A model generated the notes under the pieces. That model saw nothing but the letters and a program-made list of their open reading frames with translations, did no database searches and had not been told where the DNA came from. Made by a program: the position numbers and the translations under genes. 64,000 nucleotides of DNA from a virus, in IMG/VR virus record IMGVR_UViG_3300018080_000098, positions 186,001 through 250,000 of that record; one strand, given 5' to 3'. Below, one piece after another: positions 29,603 to 63,540 of the stretch (within the stretch, counting starts at the first letter, position 1; each line of letters opens with the position of its first letter).

Positions 29603-29604
29603 AT

Positions 29605-29679
29605 TGGGAGTGATGGGACTTGAACCCACGTCTCTGGGATCCTTAAACCTCAGCGCTTGAGCCGCTCAGCTACACTCCC
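29605..29679 (-). tRNA. tRNA-like gene with enlarged anticodon loop (TAA or TTA centre)
   Basis: Acceptor GGGAGTG/CACTCCC (7 pairs), D-arm with GCT/AGC, T-arm with TTCAAGT. The anticodon stem is CTGAG/CCCAG (one A-C mismatch) around a 10-base loop GTTTAAGGAT, or 6 pairs around 8 bases, instead of 7. The decoded triplet is therefore ambiguous (TAA, Leu; or TTA). The short variable loop is not Leu-like. Confidence 0.6.
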
Positions 29680-29684
29680 ATAGT

Positions 29685-29739: not shown

Positions 29740-29860
29740 GCTGACGACGTTTAAGCTGCCGCTTTAGTTCTATCTACCTGCGCTCTGTCAATTGAGCTAC
29801 CACCTCATAAGAGAGAGGCGGACGGGATTCAAACCCGCAACCTCAGGTTATTTTGTCAGC
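29740..29860 (-). tRNA. putative permuted tRNA gene, break in the anticodon loop
   Basis: Read on the minus strand, the T-arm (GCGGG TTTGAAT CCCGT) and 3' acceptor strand CCGCCTC (29849-29815) precede the 5' acceptor strand GAGGTGG, TA and D-arm GCTC/GAGC (29806-29782), separated by an 8-base linker. The anticodon stem is re-formed from both pieces: CAGGT (29780-29776) pairs exactly with ACCTG (29848-29844). Outside, GCTGAC (29860-29855) can pair with GTCAGC (29745-29740). The anticodon cannot be read because the join is unknown and no U33 is evident. Confidence 0.6.
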
Positions 29861-29934
29861 AGCATTCGATTCAGCGAAACCGACGAATGCTCAGATTTGG
29901 AGAATAGCTTGAACTTGCGTTGGGCATTTCTATA

Positions 29935-30045
29935 AAGCTCCGACAGCCACAGATGTCAGACAACGTGACTCGCGTCTACCAATTCCGCCACCTCCACGTA
30001 GGATTGTGGAGGGCAGGATTCGAACCTGCACGTCGTTGCGAGCTT
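29935..30045 (-). tRNA. putative permuted class II tRNA gene, break in the variable arm
   Basis: On the minus strand the T-arm (GCAGG TTCGAAT CCTGC) and 3' acceptor CCTCCAC lie first (30029-30006). A linker of 7 to 8 bases follows, then the 5' acceptor GTGGAGG (29997-29991, 7 of 7 pairs), TG and the Leu-like D-arm GCGGAATTGGTAGACGC. The variable stem forms across the break (CGACG with TGTCG), and just outside AAGCTC pairs with GAGCTT. The anticodon loop looks enlarged, so the identity is unclear. Confidence 0.65.
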
Positions 30046-30130
30046 CATAATTGGCGCCCGTCAGCTTGAGTTTGAACTTTAGCTTGTCTCCAACTCTAAG
30101 ACTTTTATTCAGTTGTGAAAAAGCTCCTCC
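30046..30130 (-). other. gene-free leader between RHH gene and tRNA-like units
   Basis: About 85 bases between the CopG-like gene and the permuted tRNA. I see no gene or clear hairpin. It probably serves as the 5' flank of the tRNA precursor. Confidence 0.35.
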
Positions 30131-30631
30131 TTACTTGAGCTCCACTAGCTTGTCACGAATCCATCGCATAGCTCCGAGCTCCAGCTGGGCTTCGCTTTCT
30201 GCAGCGTCCGCTGACTCGAGGGCCTCACGGCGCTGCTCGTACGACATTCCCGCTTCCGCCATCCCTACCTGGCCGGGAACCTGCGTTTCTAGCTCGCGGA
30301 GGCGCCTGTCCAGGTAAAAGAGCGCCCGCTCTTTCATGACTGTGGGGTTTACGTTGTCTGTTTTCACTTCTAACCATTTCCTTGCTTCTACAGTGATGCG
30401 CTCGTCAAGCCAACGTTTCATAAGCACCTGGTAGCCAGTATCTCTGCGTCGGGCAAACTCTTTGAGAATCGCCAGCATTTTGTTCGGTAGCCGAATACTG
30501 ATGGCCGTTGTGCCTGTAGTTTGAGGCACAGCTTCAGGCGCATCTTCCCATCCTTCGTCGGTGGGTTTCAGCTCACCAGAATCCCATTGTTGGGCTTCTT
30601 TCGCCAGCTGCTCGTGGTCGTCTGGTGCCAT
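30131..30631 (-). CDS. ribbon-helix-helix (CopG/BrnA-like) protein, 166 aa
   Basis: AISIRLPNKMLAILKEFARRRDTGYQVLMKRWLDERI (residues about 43-79) is an RHH domain like those of BrnA/CopG antitoxins. A C-terminal helical extension of about 85 residues is unusual in length. It follows the DUF7873-like gene by 3 bases. It probably binds its own operator. Confidence 0.7.
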   Translation of the reverse strand: MAPDDHEQLAKEAQQWDSGELKPTDEGWEDAPEAVPQTTGTTAISIRLPNKMLAILKEFARRRDTGYQVLMKRWLDERITVEARKWLEVKTDNVNPTVMKERALFYLDRRLRELETQVPGQVGMAEAGMSYEQRREALESADAAESEAQLELGAMRWIRDKLVELK

Positions 30632-30634
30632 CGG

Positions 30635-31372
30635 CTATCCCAGCAGGTATCCGAAGATAGCTTCGCCGTGGTCCTTCGGAGCAGCCTCGACTTCGTTGGC
30701 CTCTTCTCGGGCGTACTTGACCGCCTTGATGAGCTTCTGGACGCGCTTCTGCAGGTCCTTCTTCCGGTCCGCTGTAACGGCACCGCTCTGCAGAACCTGG
30801 GTCCAGGTGCCGACGATGACGTCTTTGGTAATCAGCTGCGTCTGCGCCGGGTGGTGCTCCGTGGCATCGTAGAGCACGATACCTTCCTGCACTTTCTGCA
30901 TCTGGGTGGTTTTGACCGGGTCGGACTTGAACAGGCCGGTGGCCTCGTCCTTCTGCCAGTTGTGTGCCGGGTCGAGGACGGGCATCTCGTTGACGGTGGT
31001 CTCCAGGTCCTTCAGCAGCTTCTCGAGGAAGAGGAGGTGCGTAGCGGGGACGTCCTTGAGGAGAGGTTGCCCGTCTACTACCACGTCTGCCTTCGCTTGG
31101 CAGTTGGCTGCGTCTTTCCGGGCCACCGTGTCGATGAGCTCGGTCATCTGCTCCGCCACGTTTGCAAGGAGCTCCTCGGCGCTAGCTTGGACGAGCTGCC
31201 GTTTGGGCGGCAAGTCTACCCCTTCGTCTTCCTTCTTCTGGTAGGTCTTGGTCATACCAGAGAAGAGAGTGTGGGCTTTCTGTAGGGCGTGGTAGGCTGC
31301 CGTGACATTTTTCATCACGCGGCTTTTGACGCCCTTTTCTACCGCGATGATCTGGTGCAATTTTGCGGTCAT
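30635..31372 (-). CDS. DUF7873-like conserved protein, 245 aa
   Basis: The pattern KLHQIIAVEKGVKSR ... PPKRQLVQ ... ADVVVDGQPLLKDVPATHLLFLEKLLKDLETTV ... LYDATEHHPAQTQLITKDVIVGTW matches, from memory, a conserved family of unknown function (DUF7873) found in bacteria and phages. It is full-length by that comparison. A consensus promoter and GGAGG precede it on the minus strand, so it heads the minus operon. Confidence 0.75.
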   Translation of the reverse strand: MTAKLHQIIAVEKGVKSRVMKNVTAAYHALQKAHTLFSGMTKTYQKKEDEGVDLPPKRQLVQASAEELLANVAEQMTELIDTVARKDAANCQAKADVVVDGQPLLKDVPATHLLFLEKLLKDLETTVNEMPVLDPAHNWQKDEATGLFKSDPVKTTQMQKVQEGIVLYDATEHHPAQTQLITKDVIVGTWTQVLQSGAVTADRKKDLQKRVQKLIKAVKYAREEANEVEAAPKDHGEAIFGYLLG

Positions 31373-31858: not shown

Positions 31859-31895
31859 ATATAGTTACTCTATGATGTTGAACAAAGGAACAGTT

Positions 31896-32357
31896 ATGTC
31901 GAAACGACCTCCTAAACGAATTCGTGTCAACGGGCACCAGTACGTCCTGGCTACCAACACCAACACCGACGACGATGTGCCCCCGGATATTGACTACAAC
32001 GAACTTCTTCGTATCGCGGCATCCGACAAGCCTACCGCTGAAGAACTGCAGAAATTCAGCAACGGCCTGCTGCGAGTGCGCACGAATTTGGAAACCGCTA
32101 CTATGGATCTCAGTAGCGTTAAGGGAACTGTTGCAGCAGCGTTCCAAGATTGGAGCTCCCTCGGGGGTGAATTGGTTTCTGATAAATCTGGGTCCCGTGT
32201 AGGAAGATGGCTCTTTAAACAGTTTGACAAGTTCGTTAGGTGGCGCCTGAATAAGCTTGCGAAGAAGATAGAGTCTGCGGAGGCGTCCGCTCGAAAATGG
32301 TCTCGGGCCTTTGGGAAAGCAAGACAGACCATATTGAGCAAGTTCAGTTACAGATAG
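31896..32357 (+). CDS. 'PPKxIRVNG-module' protein 1, 153 aa
   Basis: Starts MSKRPPKRIRVNGHQYVLA, the module shared with the genes at 32428, 33131 and 33404. The rest is helical and basic towards the end. AAAGGAAC precedes the ATG at 31896. It sits between blocks of minus-strand tRNA-like genes. The shared N-terminus suggests a common localisation or packaging signal; function unknown. Confidence 0.7.
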   Translation: MSKRPPKRIRVNGHQYVLATNTNTDDDVPPDIDYNELLRIAASDKPTAEELQKFSNGLLRVRTNLETATMDLSSVKGTVAAAFQDWSSLGGELVSDKSGSRVGRWLFKQFDKFVRWRLNKLAKKIESAEASARKWSRAFGKARQTILSKFSYR

Positions 32358-32427
32358 TAGCTGTTTATATTTAAGCAACCTTCCATGAAAAAACAGAATC
32401 CCGATCTTTGGGCAGAAGGAGTAGGGA

Positions 32428-32775
32428 ATGTCGAAACGGCCTCCTAAGAAAATTCGTGTGAATGGCCGCACGTATGTAAAAGCGTCCGAGATAGATACTA
32501 TACGAGCACGTGCGCAGGTACTGCCGGTACTAGCCTCCAAATACGACGTCGCTGCCAACGGGATTAGACAAGCTTTAGCTGCTTTTGACGCTTTTGAAAA
32601 AGTGGCAAAGGGTGCCGAAGATACGCTCTCTACCGATGTGGTAACATCTATGCTACACAACGTAAACTTCATGCGTAAATCTATCGCTTCCTTCCCAGGA
32701 GAACTCGAGAAGGTTAGCACCACTTTACGTGGTGTCGCGAAAAAAGATTTGGCAACCGTCAAGGCGCACAAGTAA
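32428..32775 (+). CDS. 'PPKxIRVNG-module' protein 2, 115 aa
   Basis: Starts MSKRPPKKIRVNGRTYVKA. The remaining 95 residues are helical and not obviously related to those of the other module proteins. Preceded by AGAAGGAG. Followed by the second terminator-type element. Confidence 0.7.
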   Translation: MSKRPPKKIRVNGRTYVKASEIDTIRARAQVLPVLASKYDVAANGIRQALAAFDAFEKVAKGAEDTLSTDVVTSMLHNVNFMRKSIASFPGELEKVSTTLRGVAKKDLATVKAHK

Positions 32776-32793
32776 GCCCCATTCAAGCAAGTT

Positions 32794-32859
32794 GATGAGT
32801 CGGGCCAGGCTCCCAACGCTAGGGGCTGCGCTCTTTTGAGGCAGTCCCCTTTTATTTTT
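32794..32859 (+). terminator. repeated RNA element ending in a terminator hairpin, copy 2
   Basis: GATGAGTCGGGCCAG ... AACGCTAGGGGCTGC, hairpin GGGGCTGC/GCAGTCCCC with TTTT loop, then TTTTATTTTT. Aligns along its length with 31542-31611. It follows the gene at 32428 and may terminate it. Confidence 0.6.
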
Positions 32860-32863
32860 GGGG

Positions 32864-32938
32864 CGCAGGCAGCAGGGCTCGAACCTGCAACCTCCCAGTA
32901 CCTTAAACTGAGCGCTCTACCATTGGAGCTATGCCTGC
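32864..32938 (-). tRNA. tRNA-like gene, enlarged anticodon arm (AAG or TAA)
   Basis: Acceptor GCAGGCA/TGCCTGC, D-arm GCTC/GAGC, T-arm GCAGG TTCGAGC CCTGC and a normal 5-base variable loop. The anticodon stem CTCAG/CTGGG encloses 9 bases, TTTAAGGTA; with a sixth U-A pair the 7-base loop TTAAGGT would show AAG. Two bases more than a standard arm. Confidence 0.65.
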
Positions 32939-32940
32939 AA

Positions 32941-33010
32941 CGCACAGGGGAGGAATCGAACCTCCGACGGGTGATCAACTCCCGACCTCTGCCACTGAGG
33001 CGACCTGTGC
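32941..33010 (-). tRNA. tRNA-like gene with TGA-centred loop, second copy
   Basis: Acceptor GCACAGG/CCTGTGC, D-arm CCTC/GAGG, T-arm GGAGG TTCGATT CCTCC. The anticodon region CGGGA-GTTGATC-ACCCG is almost the same as in the gene at 31646, again with an A-A closing mismatch and a 2-base variable loop. The pair looks like a duplicated, shortened tRNA. Confidence 0.55.
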
Positions 33011-33017
33011 AAAAAAA

Positions 33018-33093
33018 TGCGGACGGTGGGATTTGAACCACACGACATACCAGAGCCCGAGGGATGGCCGCTCTACCACTGAGCTACGTCCGA
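33018..33093 (-). tRNA. tRNA-like gene, irregular anticodon arm
   Basis: Acceptor TCGGACG/CGTCCGC (first pair mismatched), D-arm GCTC/GAGC with AGTGGTA, T-arm with a bulged U. The anticodon arm can be drawn as GCCA/TGGT with a 12-base loop or 10 bases with a U-C mismatch. No reliable anticodon. Confidence 0.5.
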
Positions 33094-33130
33094 TTGTAGT
33101 TACGTTATACCTAACAGAGGAGACAGAACT

Positions 33131-33400
33131 ATGCCCAAACAACCTCCCAAACAGATTCGTGTGAATGGTCACATGTACGTGCTTGCAGAGCCTACAAAGG
33201 ATAATCCGATCCCACCCGATAAAGAGATGGCGTACCAGCTGTGGCAGAGTTTGTTGGCTGCTGAGAAGGATCACGGTCCGCTGGACGAGCGCAACCAACA
33301 GAGACTCGACCGACTCACCCAGGAGTTCGCAGCGTTGGGCATCTCTCCACCTGAGCGCCCTAAGAGACAGATGATTTTTCCGAAAGGCTTCGGAGGCTAA
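33131..33400 (+). CDS. 'PPKxIRVNG-module' protein 3, 89 aa
   Basis: Starts MPKQPPKQIRVNGHMYVLAE, then a helical segment and a basic C-terminus. GAGGAG precedes the ATG. The following gene (33404) begins almost identically, pointing to tandem duplication of the 5' end. Confidence 0.7.
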   Translation: MPKQPPKQIRVNGHMYVLAEPTKDNPIPPDKEMAYQLWQSLLAAEKDHGPLDERNQQRLDRLTQEFAALGISPPERPKRQMIFPKGFGG

Positions 33401-33403
33401 TCT

Positions 33404-33625
33404 ATGCCTAAACAACCACCTACAAGAATCCGCGTTAACGGGCACACGTATGTACTCGCTGAGCCTCCCGAAGAAGGAGCTTCCGGTCCTCAGTCGCTGA
33501 CTGACGAAGAGAAGAAGTTCATGGACGAGCTCAACAGGAAGATGTACCAACCTGGGTACCAGGTGAGTCAGTACGAAGCTGACTTGTACAACGCTCTTCT
33601 GAAGAAGATGAAGCCCAAGTCTTAA
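33404..33625 (+). CDS. 'PPKxIRVNG-module' protein 4, 73 aa
   Basis: Starts MPKQPPTRIRVNGHTYVLAE, like the preceding gene. The remainder (SLTDEEKKFMDELNRKMYQPG) is a short helical region. It starts 3 bases after the previous stop. Confidence 0.7.
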   Translation: MPKQPPTRIRVNGHTYVLAEPPEEGASGPQSLTDEEKKFMDELNRKMYQPGYQVSQYEADLYNALLKKMKPKS

Positions 33626-33639
33626 CCTGTCATAAGTGA

Positions 33640-33718
33640 TGGAGAGGCCAGGAGTTGAACCTGGACGGCCGTCTGGATTACTCCGATGAAACGGTGCTCT
33701 CCCCAGAGCTACCTCTCC
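33640..33718 (-). tRNA. tRNA-like gene with 16-base anticodon loop
   Basis: Acceptor GGAGAGG/CCTCTCC, D-arm GCTC/GAGC, T-arm CCAGG TTCAACT CCTGG, all regular. The anticodon stem CCGTT/GACGG encloses 16 bases (TCATCGGAGTAATCCA), nine more than usual, as if a small intron were present. A CAT triplet lies near the 5' side of the loop. Confidence 0.6.
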
Positions 33719-33724
33719 GAAAAG

Positions 33725-33797
33725 TGGTCGGCGTGGACTCGAACCACGTACCCCGTTGCCGCTAGGCGCCAACGATAGCAGTACCGCTACCCGACCG
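33725..33797 (-). tRNA. tRNA-like gene with 11-base anticodon loop
   Basis: Acceptor CGGTCGG/CCGACCA (C1-A72 mismatch, as in bacterial initiator tRNA), a short D-arm AGC/GCT, T-arm CGTGG TTCGAGT CCACG. The anticodon stem CGTTG/CAACG encloses 11 bases GCGCCTAGCGG, in which CGC/GCG may pair. No reliable anticodon. Confidence 0.55.
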
Positions 33798-33804
33798 GAG
33801 GACA

Positions 33805-34333
33805 TTAGCTTCCCACTCCTTGTGTTTGGTTTCTACCCGGTGACCACCACCGAGCTTTGAATCTCTGCCACCAGGAACTCTCGAGATCCTGAATCTTCTC
33901 CTTGAGCTTGGAGATCTCCCTTTCCTGAGTTCTCCGCTTCGCCCACTCCTCCTGCATGTAATCGTGGTGCTCCACGAAATCCACCATCCGAAGCAGGGAC
34001 AACGTACTCAAATATTTCCCACGGATACTCTTGGGACCAGGCTTGACCCCCAGAGCCATCACCTGCCCAGCATACCTCCCGGCAGATTCGACTACGCGGT
34101 GCACAGGTACACCACGCTCCTCGAGCTCATCCGCAAGTTCGCAGAGCTCCCCTTCGGTTTCTACACCGAGAGCAACAGCATATGTTCCGGGACTTAGGTT
34201 ACCGTCCGAGGATTCCCCGCTGGCGTGGACACACTGCGCAAAGGCAATGCCCACGGGCAGGTCTGTCCGAACAATGCAGTAATGGCAAATGGGGTCGTGG
34301 GAGGCTTGCTGACTGTCAAGGGAGGTTACGCAT
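33805..34333 (-). CDS. peptidyl-tRNA hydrolase 2 (PTH2)-like protein, frame joined by an apparent +1 shift
   Basis: The domain HYCIVRTDLPVGIAFAQCVHA ... TYAVALGVETEGELCELADELEERGVPV ... AGQVMALGVKPGPK fits the PTH2 family, which releases amino acids or peptides from stalled peptidyl-tRNA. It is followed by a coiled, basic tail. The ATG at 34333, behind AAGGAG, reads MRNLP and meets TGA at CCT TGA C; the hydrolase frame is entered by a +1 step there. Without it no normal start lies downstream of the promoter. Confidence 0.75.
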
Positions 34334-34376
34334 TTTTCTTGGCTCCTTGGTTGCGCGTTTTTTGTTCGACCACCCA

Positions 34377-34405
34377 AGCATAAGGACACCGCTCCACGAT
34401 GTCAA
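34377..34405 (-). promoter_or_regulatory. sigma70-like promoter, minus strand
   Basis: Minus strand TTGACA (34405-34400), 17-base spacer, TATGCT (34382-34377). It would start transcription near 34371, upstream of the AAGGAG and ATG of the PTH2-like gene. Confidence 0.7.
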
Positions 34406-34490
34406 GCAGAAAAAGCAAACTTTTTCGTAAGTCAGCGCAACCATAGTTAGTATTTGGTACAAAAACTTCACCAAAACACCCCAAACGACC

Positions 34491-35996
34491 ATGCAAACAG
34501 TACCACAAACGCTCCGCTACCAAGGTACCACCTACGACCTGGTAGAAGCAGCTGACAGCTCCCCCGAAGACCTCAAAGCGTACCTCCACAGCGCCCGACG
34601 AGCCTTCAACCGCCTCGTCCGCGAAAGCGGCAAAGCTTCAGCTCTACGACACCAAATCGAAGAGACCACCGACGACCCCAAGAAAGCCCAGTCTACCTGG
34701 TCCACCCAAGCTCCTAAACACCCCGCTATCAAGAAGTTCCTCAAACGCTTCAACGTCACCGGAGACAAAGAGAAATTCCTGCTCTCCAAACTCCGAGACG
34801 CCGTCTTCGGCAAACCCCGAGACGAAGCATGGAACAGCTTGCGTCGTTACCTCGAAGCCGCCTACATCGCCCAGCAACGAGAGAAAGCTCGAGAACCCGC
34901 AGTCAAAGCTGGTATCCCCAAGGAAATCATCGAGAAGTTCTTCCCCAAGTCCTTCGCTTTCGACGTGGCTCCCGATGGCAAGCTCGTCCGAGAGTTCGAG
35001 GTGTTCGGGAACGAAAAGAAAACCATCGAGGCTAAGCGCAAAGCTATGCGCATTCTGCTAACCAGGTGGAACGACCTCGTGGACCGTATCAACCGGGACC
35101 TCCAATCTACCAACCCCATCCGACGCCTCGAAGCCCTCGTTACCTCTATCATCATCCATACTGGTATCCGTCCTGGTGAGGGTGGAGAATCCAAGCTCAA
35201 GGACGACTTCGGGAAAATCATCCGTGACGACGAAGGTAAGCCTATCCGAATCAAAACCGTCGGTGCCACCGGTATCAAACCCGAGCACGTCGATTTCGTT
35301 CGAGACGACTTCGCCGTTATCGAGTTTCCCGGTAAAGCTGGTACCAAGAACGTCGCGGAGCTCACTGACCCTAACATCGTCCACGCTCTTCAAGAACAAA
35401 TACAACTGGTAGAGCAGGACAACGAGGACCTCGCGTTCGTAGCTCCTACGGGAGAACGAGTCACCCCGAAACGTATCAACCGTTACCTGCGCAGCGTCCT
35501 CGGGCCCGGTGTCACCGCCAGCGACTTCCGGAAGCTCAAGGCTACCCAGACCTTCTACGATTCCCTGAACCAACGTAAGCACGAGCTCGTCGCGCGCTTC
35601 AAAAACCTCAAGGAGCTCACGAAGGGCGACATGCGAGAGCAAATCGTCTCCGCCATCGTCGACTACCTCTACGAAGCCGCCGAGCACGCCCAAGAAGCCA
35701 TTAGCCACACCGACGTAGAAACCACTCTGGAATACTACATCACTCCTCGCGTTACCATAGACTACCTGGCCGGGAAGGGTGTGAACCGAGCTCTGGACGT
35801 TGTGGTCGGTGACGGTAAAGAGCTCCAGGTCAACTTCGATCCACTCGACTTTTTCGAGACGATGACGCGAGACGTCGAAGAGAAAGCAGCCTCGGTACAA
35901 CGTACAGCTGCTACGCTGTTCTACTTCGGTGATGAGTTCGTTGACTACAACGTCGACGACGCCATCGAAGAGCTCGAGGAAGACTCCTCTAGATAA
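34491..35996 (+). CDS. DNA topoisomerase IB
   Basis: 501-aa protein with the catalytic core of eukaryotic/poxvirus-type topoisomerase IB: TGIRPGEGGE (first Arg), FPGKAGTKN (Lys hairpin), TASDFRKLKATQTF (second Arg region), SHTDVET (His) and LEYYITPRV (nucleophilic Tyr). It relaxes supercoils through a 3'-phosphotyrosyl intermediate without ATP. The N-terminal 150 residues form the usual cap domain, and about 80 residues extend beyond the Tyr. Its first residues (LRYQGTTYDLVEA) loosely recall the IRVNG module. Starts about 100 bases from the divergent PTH2 promoter. Confidence 0.9.
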   Translation: MQTVPQTLRYQGTTYDLVEAADSSPEDLKAYLHSARRAFNRLVRESGKASALRHQIEETTDDPKKAQSTWSTQAPKHPAIKKFLKRFNVTGDKEKFLLSKLRDAVFGKPRDEAWNSLRRYLEAAYIAQQREKAREPAVKAGIPKEIIEKFFPKSFAFDVAPDGKLVREFEVFGNEKKTIEAKRKAMRILLTRWNDLVDRINRDLQSTNPIRRLEALVTSIIIHTGIRPGEGGESKLKDDFGKIIRDDEGKPIRIKTVGATGIKPEHVDFVRDDFAVIEFPGKAGTKNVAELTDPNIVHALQEQIQLVEQDNEDLAFVAPTGERVTPKRINRYLRSVLGPGVTASDFRKLKATQTFYDSLNQRKHELVARFKNLKELTKGDMREQIVSAIVDYLYEAAEHAQEAISHTDVETTLEYYITPRVTIDYLAGKGVNRALDVVVGDGKELQVNFDPLDFFETMTRDVEEKAASVQRTAATLFYFGDEFVDYNVDDAIEELEEDSSR

Positions 35997-36004
35997 TTTC
36001 CATT

Positions 36005-45115: not shown

Positions 45116-45235
45116 ATGATGAAGAGGGTCAGTAACTTTCAGTATTTCGTAGCAGAAAAGAAAACAAACAGAGAAGGACCCTCTTATGAAGTCGTACCCC
45201 AGTATTCCGTACCCTGGGAAGAAGGGAACGGGTAA
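45116..45235 (+). CDS. possible short gene overlapping the RNA ligase, 39 aa
   Basis: ATGATG just after AGGAG opens a 39-residue frame (MMKRVSNFQYFVAEKK ...) that runs 50 bases into the ligase gene in another frame. It could be a leader peptide coupled to ligase translation. Confidence 0.4.
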   Translation: MMKRVSNFQYFVAEKKTNREGPSYEVVPQYSVPWEEGNG

Positions 45236-45797
45236 AAAACTTCACACTTTCGCCAAGCTAGACGGCTCCAACCTCCGCTTCGAGTGGACCAAGAAAAAAG
45301 GCTGGCATAAATTCGGTACTCGTCGTCATCTTTTTGACGAGAGCTTCGATGTCTATGGACCGGCGATCCCACTCTTTCGGGAACGGCTCTCCGAACCCCT
45401 CGAGCGCATTGCGCGGGACAACCGATGGGACAAGGTCATCGTATTCTGCGAGTACTACGGCCCGCAGTCGTTGGGTGGGCAACATGAGCCCGACGATCCA
45501 ATGGAGCTCACCGTCATCGACGTCAATCCTCATCGGAAGGGTATCCTCCCTCCCGTAGAATTCCTGAAGCTGTTCGAGGAATTCGGCCCTAATTATCTAG
45601 GCCACCTTACGTGGTCGTTGGGTTTTCTTTCGCGTGTGCAGAGCGGGGAAGTCGAAGGCGCCAGCTTCGAAGGCGTCGTCGGTAAGTGCACGGAAGGTAA
45701 GGTACTCAAGATGTACAAGACTAAGACGGCTGCCTGGATAGAGGCGATCCTCGAGCGCCACGGAGAGGAAAAAGGACGGAGGATAATCAACAGCTAG
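45186..45797 (+). CDS. RNA ligase (nucleotidyltransferase superfamily, Rnl2-like)
   Basis: 203 aa with all nucleotidyltransferase motifs: motif I KLDGSNLR with nucleophile Lys24, motif III/IIIa VIVFCEYYG (84-92), motif IV EGVVGK (162-167) and motif V KMYK (175-178). It seals 3'-OH/5'-phosphate RNA ends via lysyl-AMP and RNA-adenylate. The chain is compact, without a large C-terminal domain. With KptA/Tpt1 and permuted or insertion-bearing tRNA genes in the same genome, tRNA joining or repair after anticodon-nuclease attack are the leading roles; both are inference. Confidence 0.85.
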   Translation: MKSYPSIPYPGKKGTGKKLHTFAKLDGSNLRFEWTKKKGWHKFGTRRHLFDESFDVYGPAIPLFRERLSEPLERIARDNRWDKVIVFCEYYGPQSLGGQHEPDDPMELTVIDVNPHRKGILPPVEFLKLFEEFGPNYLGHLTWSLGFLSRVQSGEVEGASFEGVVGKCTEGKVLKMYKTKTAAWIEAILERHGEEKGRRIINS

Positions 45798-63486: not shown

Positions 63487-63540
63487 GGTTTCAAGATTAA
63501 GGGAACAAGATTTCGAGGACTGGAAGGTAAGTACAGAAAA

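Follow-up and report, generated by a model that had tools for sequence, protein, structure and literature searches.

Can a tRNA whose 3′ half is encoded ahead of its 5′ half be a genuine gene of a bacterial virus? The question is raised by a 64,000-nucleotide stretch (the window) of the IMG/VR virus record IMGVR_UViG_3300018080_000098, spanning positions 186,001–250,000 of that record, in which the minus strand carries two neighbouring tRNA-like elements in permuted order, elements 1 and 2, close to a gene of the DUF7873 family (Table 1). Permuted tRNA genes are known from archaea and algae, where they use a bulge-helix-bulge (BHB) motif, the endonuclease EndA and a ligase; in the literature that we found, none was reported from bacterial viruses. 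The arrangement is real and conserved. Judged by their sequences, elements 1 and 2 are probably members of a phage family of circularly permuted tRNA or tRNA-like genes that travels with DUF7873, and tRNA processing would open their acceptor.

Architecture of the permuted elements

A first, sequence-only reading had proposed a permuted class II tRNA on the minus strand, with the 3′ half ahead of a Leu-like 5′ half and the variable arm restored by pairing between the two pieces. The order was confirmed, with 7/7 acceptor pairs, and the proposal proved right as a description of the architecture. Along the minus strand, element 1 comprises a closing stem, T arm, 3′ acceptor, linker, 5′ acceptor, D arm, anticodon arm and second closing strand. 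The T arm GCAGG-TTCGAAT-CCTGC (30029–30013) leads into the 3′ acceptor CCTCCAC (30012–30006), the linker AATCCTAC (30005–29998), the 5′ acceptor GTGGAGG (29997–29991) and the Leu-type D arm TGGCGGAATTGGTAGACGC (29990–29972). The variable-arm strands (T)GTCG (29945–29941) and CGAC(G) (30035–30031) pair only across the break. Outside them, the previously noted AAGCTC/GAGCTT helix is present and extends to nine pairs between ATGAAGCTC (30048–30040) and GAGCTTTAT (29940–29932), and the GCAA described as bulged between the helices is seen at 30039–30036. Outermost, beyond an internal loop, lies a GGGC/GCCC helix (30059–30056 with 29925–29922). The anticodon loop of about 14 nucleotides was absent from the earlier reading, and element 1 was reported by neither ARAGORN nor Rfam.

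Element 2, which the earlier reading had missed, has the acceptor strands CCGCCTC and GAGGTGG (7/7 pairs) on either side of the linker tctcttat. Its anticodon stem CAGGT/ACCTG forms across the break and is enclosed by an outer helix GCTGAC/GTCAGC. Both linkers are 8 nucleotides long and unstructured, and the breaks of the two neighbours fall in different tRNA loops.

The permuted arrangement of element 1 exceeds chance. Its folding z-score was −3.07, with 1 of 200 shuffles equal or better, and its head–tail duplex reached −22.9 kcal/mol, a value equalled or bettered in 5/2000 shuffles. Scanning both strands of the genome (349,793 bases) for a 5/5 T arm and a 7/7 acceptor separated by a linker of 3–39 nucleotides gave five matches: four permuted elements (elements 1 and 2, and two on the plus strand at 63.7 and 63.9 kb) and one chance match beside a normal Leu tRNA. 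A stricter scan returned two matches in the real genome and none in each of 20 dinucleotide shuffles.

Recurrence beside DUF7873 in unrelated phages

The earlier reading had suggested searching other phages for the same arrangement, and it was found in nine, beside DUF7873. In a discovery set of four phages (Phendrix, NiceHouse, Mimi and Pam2), the gap after DUF7873 holds one or two unannotated permuted elements each. Five more distant phages, retrieved later, served as a test set. A single element occupies the gap in each of Vibrio K480, Rhizobium TM16 and TM39 and Klebsiella FBKp24; Keelan carries a pair displaced from the gap, lying just past an inserted tRNA-Thr gene. The nine phages are unrelated and span Gordonia, Rhodococcus, Arthrobacter, Vibrio, Rhizobium, Klebsiella and Pseudanabaena. 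A 3′ half preceding a 5′ half with complementary acceptor strands is present in elements 1 and 2 (7/7) and in 13 strict elements of the nine relatives; 11 of these lie in the 4,404 nucleotides of gap, compared with two (the Keelan pair) in 122,634 nucleotides outside it. The anticodon stems formed across the breaks differ in sequence (ACGGC/GCTGT, GCAGA/TCTGT, ACGGT/ACCGT, GAAAC/GTTTC, CAGGT/ACCTG), and the Pam2 element shares its Leu D arm with element 1. No Rfam family covers the DUF7873-linked elements, and no paper naming DUF7873 was found.

The sequence TATYGCTCYA occurs downstream of the first element in four relatives, with a near match in the window. In these relatives (L269, L270, L271 and L272) it forms a conserved hairpin-like motif just after the element. 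By eye, the region can also be read in all four as a short MKLKLSL-like frame, terminated by a stop in some. It may represent a motif of the RNA or, alternatively, a tag-like peptide.

An encoded CCA end and comparison with YrlA

A CCA end is a requirement of a working tRNA. Among the 13 strict elements of the relatives, 9 encode NCCA immediately behind the 3′ acceptor, compared with 23/74 conventional T arms at the same loci; the ACCA form occurs in the Phendrix, NiceHouse, Mimi, Keelan, Vibrio and Klebsiella elements. This feature bears on the possibility that element 1 is a YrlA-type Y RNA, a permanently permuted tRNA mimic that sits on a basal stem, binds Ro60 and keeps a sealed acceptor that is never processed. 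YrlA has been described as a circular permutation of a tRNA (PMC11472068, PMC8394870), and permuted tRNA mimicry in phages is therefore already known in this form; its tRNA-like domain has been proposed to act as a competitive inhibitor of anticodon nuclease (PMC7790460).

YrlA-type elements are common in phages. BLAST of the element 1 junction pointed to Gordonia GMA2 and Microbacterium BAjuniper, and a pattern scan of IMG/VR yielded 64 UUCG-capped permuted elements, all with 6–7 of 7 acceptor pairs. These were considered as new permuted tRNAs and dropped, as Rfam and TROVE identify them as YrlA. The commonest type is broken between positions 28 and 29, with 27–28 supplied from the far end and pairing with 42–43. 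A second scan without an acceptor constraint again returned permuted elements, with stems of about 5–9 base pairs and stable tetraloops. TROVE/Ro60 is encoded in 32 of the 49 records searched, nearly all of them carrying YrlA-type elements, and class II Leu-type YrlAs occur beside Ro60. In one record that has no TROVE (L162:7500–7680), another tRNA holds a permuted Leu-type tRNA-like element nested in its anticodon arm; judged by eye, each of the two acceptors has 7/7 pairs.

Elements 1 and 2 share with YrlA (RF02553), their nearest known counterpart, a phage-borne set of permuted T, acceptor and D arms on a basal stem made of the 5′ and 3′ ends of the RNA. With the YrlA model, element 2 scores 37.5 bits, within the range of several phage YrlAs (33–51 bits), and a divergent Ro60-like gene lies elsewhere in this phage. 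However, both elements fall below the model cut-off of 69 bits, element 1 at only 15.8. YrlA acceptors often measure 5–9 base pairs and are capped by UUCG, GNRA or CUUG, whereas those of the DUF7873-linked elements have 7 base pairs and NCCA. The conserved YrlA motif GGTTACTTC, which accompanies an internal loop, is absent from element 1, and Pfam gave no match to TROVE (PF05731), the partner of YrlA, in this phage. No sealed acceptor hairpin was found in elements 1 and 2, whose linkers are unstructured, and the relatives mostly encode NCCA at this place. Among YrlA-type elements selected regardless of their linker, no linker contains NCCA; a figure of 1/71 for YrlA-type elements is biased, most of them having been chosen for TTCG. 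Because NCCA is frequent in the relatives and missing from this YrlA set, the DUF7873-linked RNAs look built for opening to a CCA end, unlike the sealed YrlA. We regard a YrlA-type identity of element 1 as unlikely.

Splicing, two-piece tmRNA and gene debris

In a second alternative, element 1 would be a permuted tRNA gene of the kind found in archaea and red algae: its ends would be cleaved and joined at the break and its linker lost, yielding an ordinary tRNA-Leu. The order and pairing of element 1 match permuted pre-tRNAs: in the archaeal and algal genes, too, the 3′ half precedes the 5′ half, a linker lies between the acceptor strands and the breaks fall in the D, anticodon or variable region. 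A candidate RNA ligase is also encoded in the window (45186–45797, plus strand, 203 amino acids, phrog_548, E 9e-8). In contrast to those genes, element 1 resides in a phage that has no tRNA-splicing endonuclease (PF01974), its anticodon loop would still measure 14 nucleotides after splicing, and no shared bulge-helix motif is conserved at the breaks of the relatives. The relaxed bulge-helix cleavage site suggested at first therefore found no support; the break loop varies, and what the relatives keep is NCCA. Ligases are patchy in the 45 records searched, which are mostly YrlA-type phages and do not include the DUF7873 phages (RtcB in 3, T4 Rnl1 in 7, RNA_ligase in 11). An RNA ligase was also considered as the joining partner of the YrlA-type class and rejected, since this patchiness leaves that class without a shared machine. 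Catalytic RNA at the break, whether a group I intron or a ribozyme, was also rejected, as Rfam gave nothing relevant. Splicing is made less likely by the lack of EndA and the 14-nucleotide anticodon loop, and we consider it distinctly improbable.

Permuted two-piece transfer-messenger RNA (tmRNA) offers another parallel. There, as in the DUF7873-linked elements, a removable linker joins the acceptor strands, CCA is encoded before the linker and the pieces are held together by pairing. The DUF7873-linked elements differ from it in lacking a tmRNA fold or recognised tag and in having a normal tRNA D arm and an anticodon-type stem. The tmRNA models were not matched (tmRNA_permuted 10.2 bits against a cut-off of 47; cyano_tmRNA 16 bits against 70), and Phendrix carries a separate, ordinary tmRNA.

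Element 1 might instead be debris of two tandem tRNA genes: with the outer halves lost, the 3′ half of the first and the 5′ half of the second would remain. Tandem Leu tRNA pairs are common, and the best phage match to the element 1 junction is an adjacent tRNA-Leu gene pair in CcrBL9, a plausible origin. However, debris would not be expected to retain acceptor and cross-break pairing, or to recur beside DUF7873 in nine unrelated phages. Among 122 Leu-type tandem junctions, 7/7 acceptors were seen in only four; an ordinary tandem pair accounts for one of these, and of the remaining three at least two are structured elements. We find this origin very improbable.

Proposed maturation and role

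The reading that we favour, a DUF7873-linked family of permuted tRNA-like genes, draws directly on gene order, acceptor complementarity, cross-break pairing, NCCA in most relatives and linkage to DUF7873. The transcript would start in the closing stem, at the former variable or anticodon loop, and continue through the T arm, the 3′ acceptor (with NCCA in most relatives), a short linker, the 5′ acceptor, the D arm and the second closing strand. The linker may be cut by tRNA end-processing, with RNase P acting on the 5′ side and either tRNase Z or trimming of the 3′ end on the opposite side. This would free a CCA acceptor, while the two pieces would stay joined by the closing stem, used unspliced, as in two-piece tmRNA. 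The product could mimic or act as a charged tRNA with an altered anticodon end. As a guess, DUF7873 might bind the RNA, and the role in infection might be that of an anticodon-nuclease-resistant tRNA or a decoy.

Several points weigh against this reading. The linkers of elements 1 and 2 encode no CCA, although the same holds for those conventional tRNAs of this phage whose 3′ flanks were inspected. A search for close homologues of element 1 by acceptor sequence gave 0 matches, and its 14-nucleotide anticodon loop is unable to decode normally. In most relatives the break of the first element lies in the anticodon loop, whereas that of element 1 lies in the variable arm; some linkers are long (24–36 nucleotides), and in this phage a CopG-like gene separates DUF7873 from element 1. 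The partnership with DUF7873, a protein with no known activity, is a case of guilt by association. A fuller version is offered tentatively: phages of actinobacteria, proteobacteria and cyanobacteria may share tRNA genes that are genuinely permuted, end in CCA, yield two-piece tRNAs by unspliced maturation and work with DUF7873, possibly resisting nucleases or controlling translation.

The minus-strand neighbourhood

Conventional-order tRNA-like elements with enlarged anticodon loops (9–18 nucleotides) lie on the minus strand at 29604–29680, 32865–32938, 33018–33093 and 33641–33718 and are confined to this cluster. A PTH2-like peptidyl-tRNA hydrolase gene (33805–34389) stands at its upstream end. 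On the plus strand, repeated small genes (31872–36000) with MPKQPPKQIRVNGHMYVLA-like starts resemble the N-terminus of a topoisomerase IB-like protein at 34491. No permuted element was found in G043, which carries a relative of the CopG-like protein.

Table 1. Permuted elements, neighbouring genes and array modules, numbered from the first letter of the window unless prefixed G000.
Feature	Position	Strand	Basis
Permuted tRNA-like element 1: closing stem, 3′ half, 8-nucleotide linker, Leu-type 5′ half	29922..30060	−	sequence, fold, shuffles
Element 1, T arm and 3′ acceptor strand CCTCCAC	30006..30029	−	
Element 1, linker AATCCTAC between acceptor strands, without CCA	29998..30005	−	
Element 1, 5′ acceptor strand GTGGAGG and Leu-type D arm	29972..29997	−	
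Element 1, local anticodon arm AGTCAC/GTGGCT, 14-nucleotide loop, not decoding-like	29945..29970	−	
Permuted tRNA-like element 2, directly after element 1	29740..29860	−	scan, fold, YrlA model
Conventional-order tRNA-like, enlarged anticodon loop, directly after element 2	29604..29680	−	
CopG-antitoxin-like gene, between DUF7873 and element 1	30131..30631	−	
DUF7873 gene (PF25283), two genes upstream of element 1	30635..31372	−	5e-93
Array module 'tRNA-Ser', normal order	63513	+	
Array module broken in variable arm	63697	+	
Array module broken in D loop	63885	+	
Array module 'tRNA-Cys', normal order, 5-bp acceptor	G000:250771	+	

A separate Y-RNA-like array

The plus strand carries a Y-RNA-like array at 63513–64014 and on to G000:250891, consisting of four RNAs that share one basal stem and lying upstream of the genes for a 709-amino-acid vWA protein and ARPP-1. 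The stem is built of an outer helix, the loop ACKRC, an inner helix and UACAGRA, with the loop CACAUUU on the return strand, and it frames tRNA modules in different circular registers. Orthologous arrays are present in three relatives (L264–L266). In a hand-assembled alignment of 16 elements from 4 genomes, the basal stem is paired in 95.1% of cells, compared with a shuffled mean of 72.0, and its covariation is 0.645, compared with 0.176 when shuffled and at most 0.126 when slid. The ARAGORN anticodons of orthologous modules differ (Ser-tga, Asp-atc, Ile-tat, Thr-agt), which argues for mimics rather than decoding tRNAs.

The 709-amino-acid protein matches a phage Ro60 profile in its vWA part (E 5e-4, hhalign 95.5%). 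Its Ro60 fold was not confirmed by two AF2 models (pLDDT 44 and 56.8), and a Foldseek search of the PDB was uninformative. A search for DUF7873 in the Ro-locus relatives found none. The array and the vWA gene are probably a divergent Ro60/Y RNA system, which stands as a separate finding. In L267 (JAFCCX010000051.1), a contig assigned to a Pacearchaeota bin, a 36% homologue of the Ro60-like protein is encoded in synteny with an ARPP-1-like gene, and an unusual tRNA-like element with a large insert is found upstream.

Implications

Counts of phage tRNAs overlook permuted genes, yet include Y-RNA-like mimics miscalled as tRNAs. If the fuller version of our reading is true, neither bacteria nor their viruses were previously known to have permuted tRNA genes, and the DUF7873-linked genes would be the first. 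Because this conserved, unannotated family is linked to a single protein of unknown function in phages of several bacterial phyla, it opens a direct route to the role of DUF7873, and the cultured actinophages Phendrix, NiceHouse, Mimi and Keelan make it accessible to experiment. The family also bears on why phages rearrange tRNAs, for which anticodon-nuclease defences are the obvious suspect.
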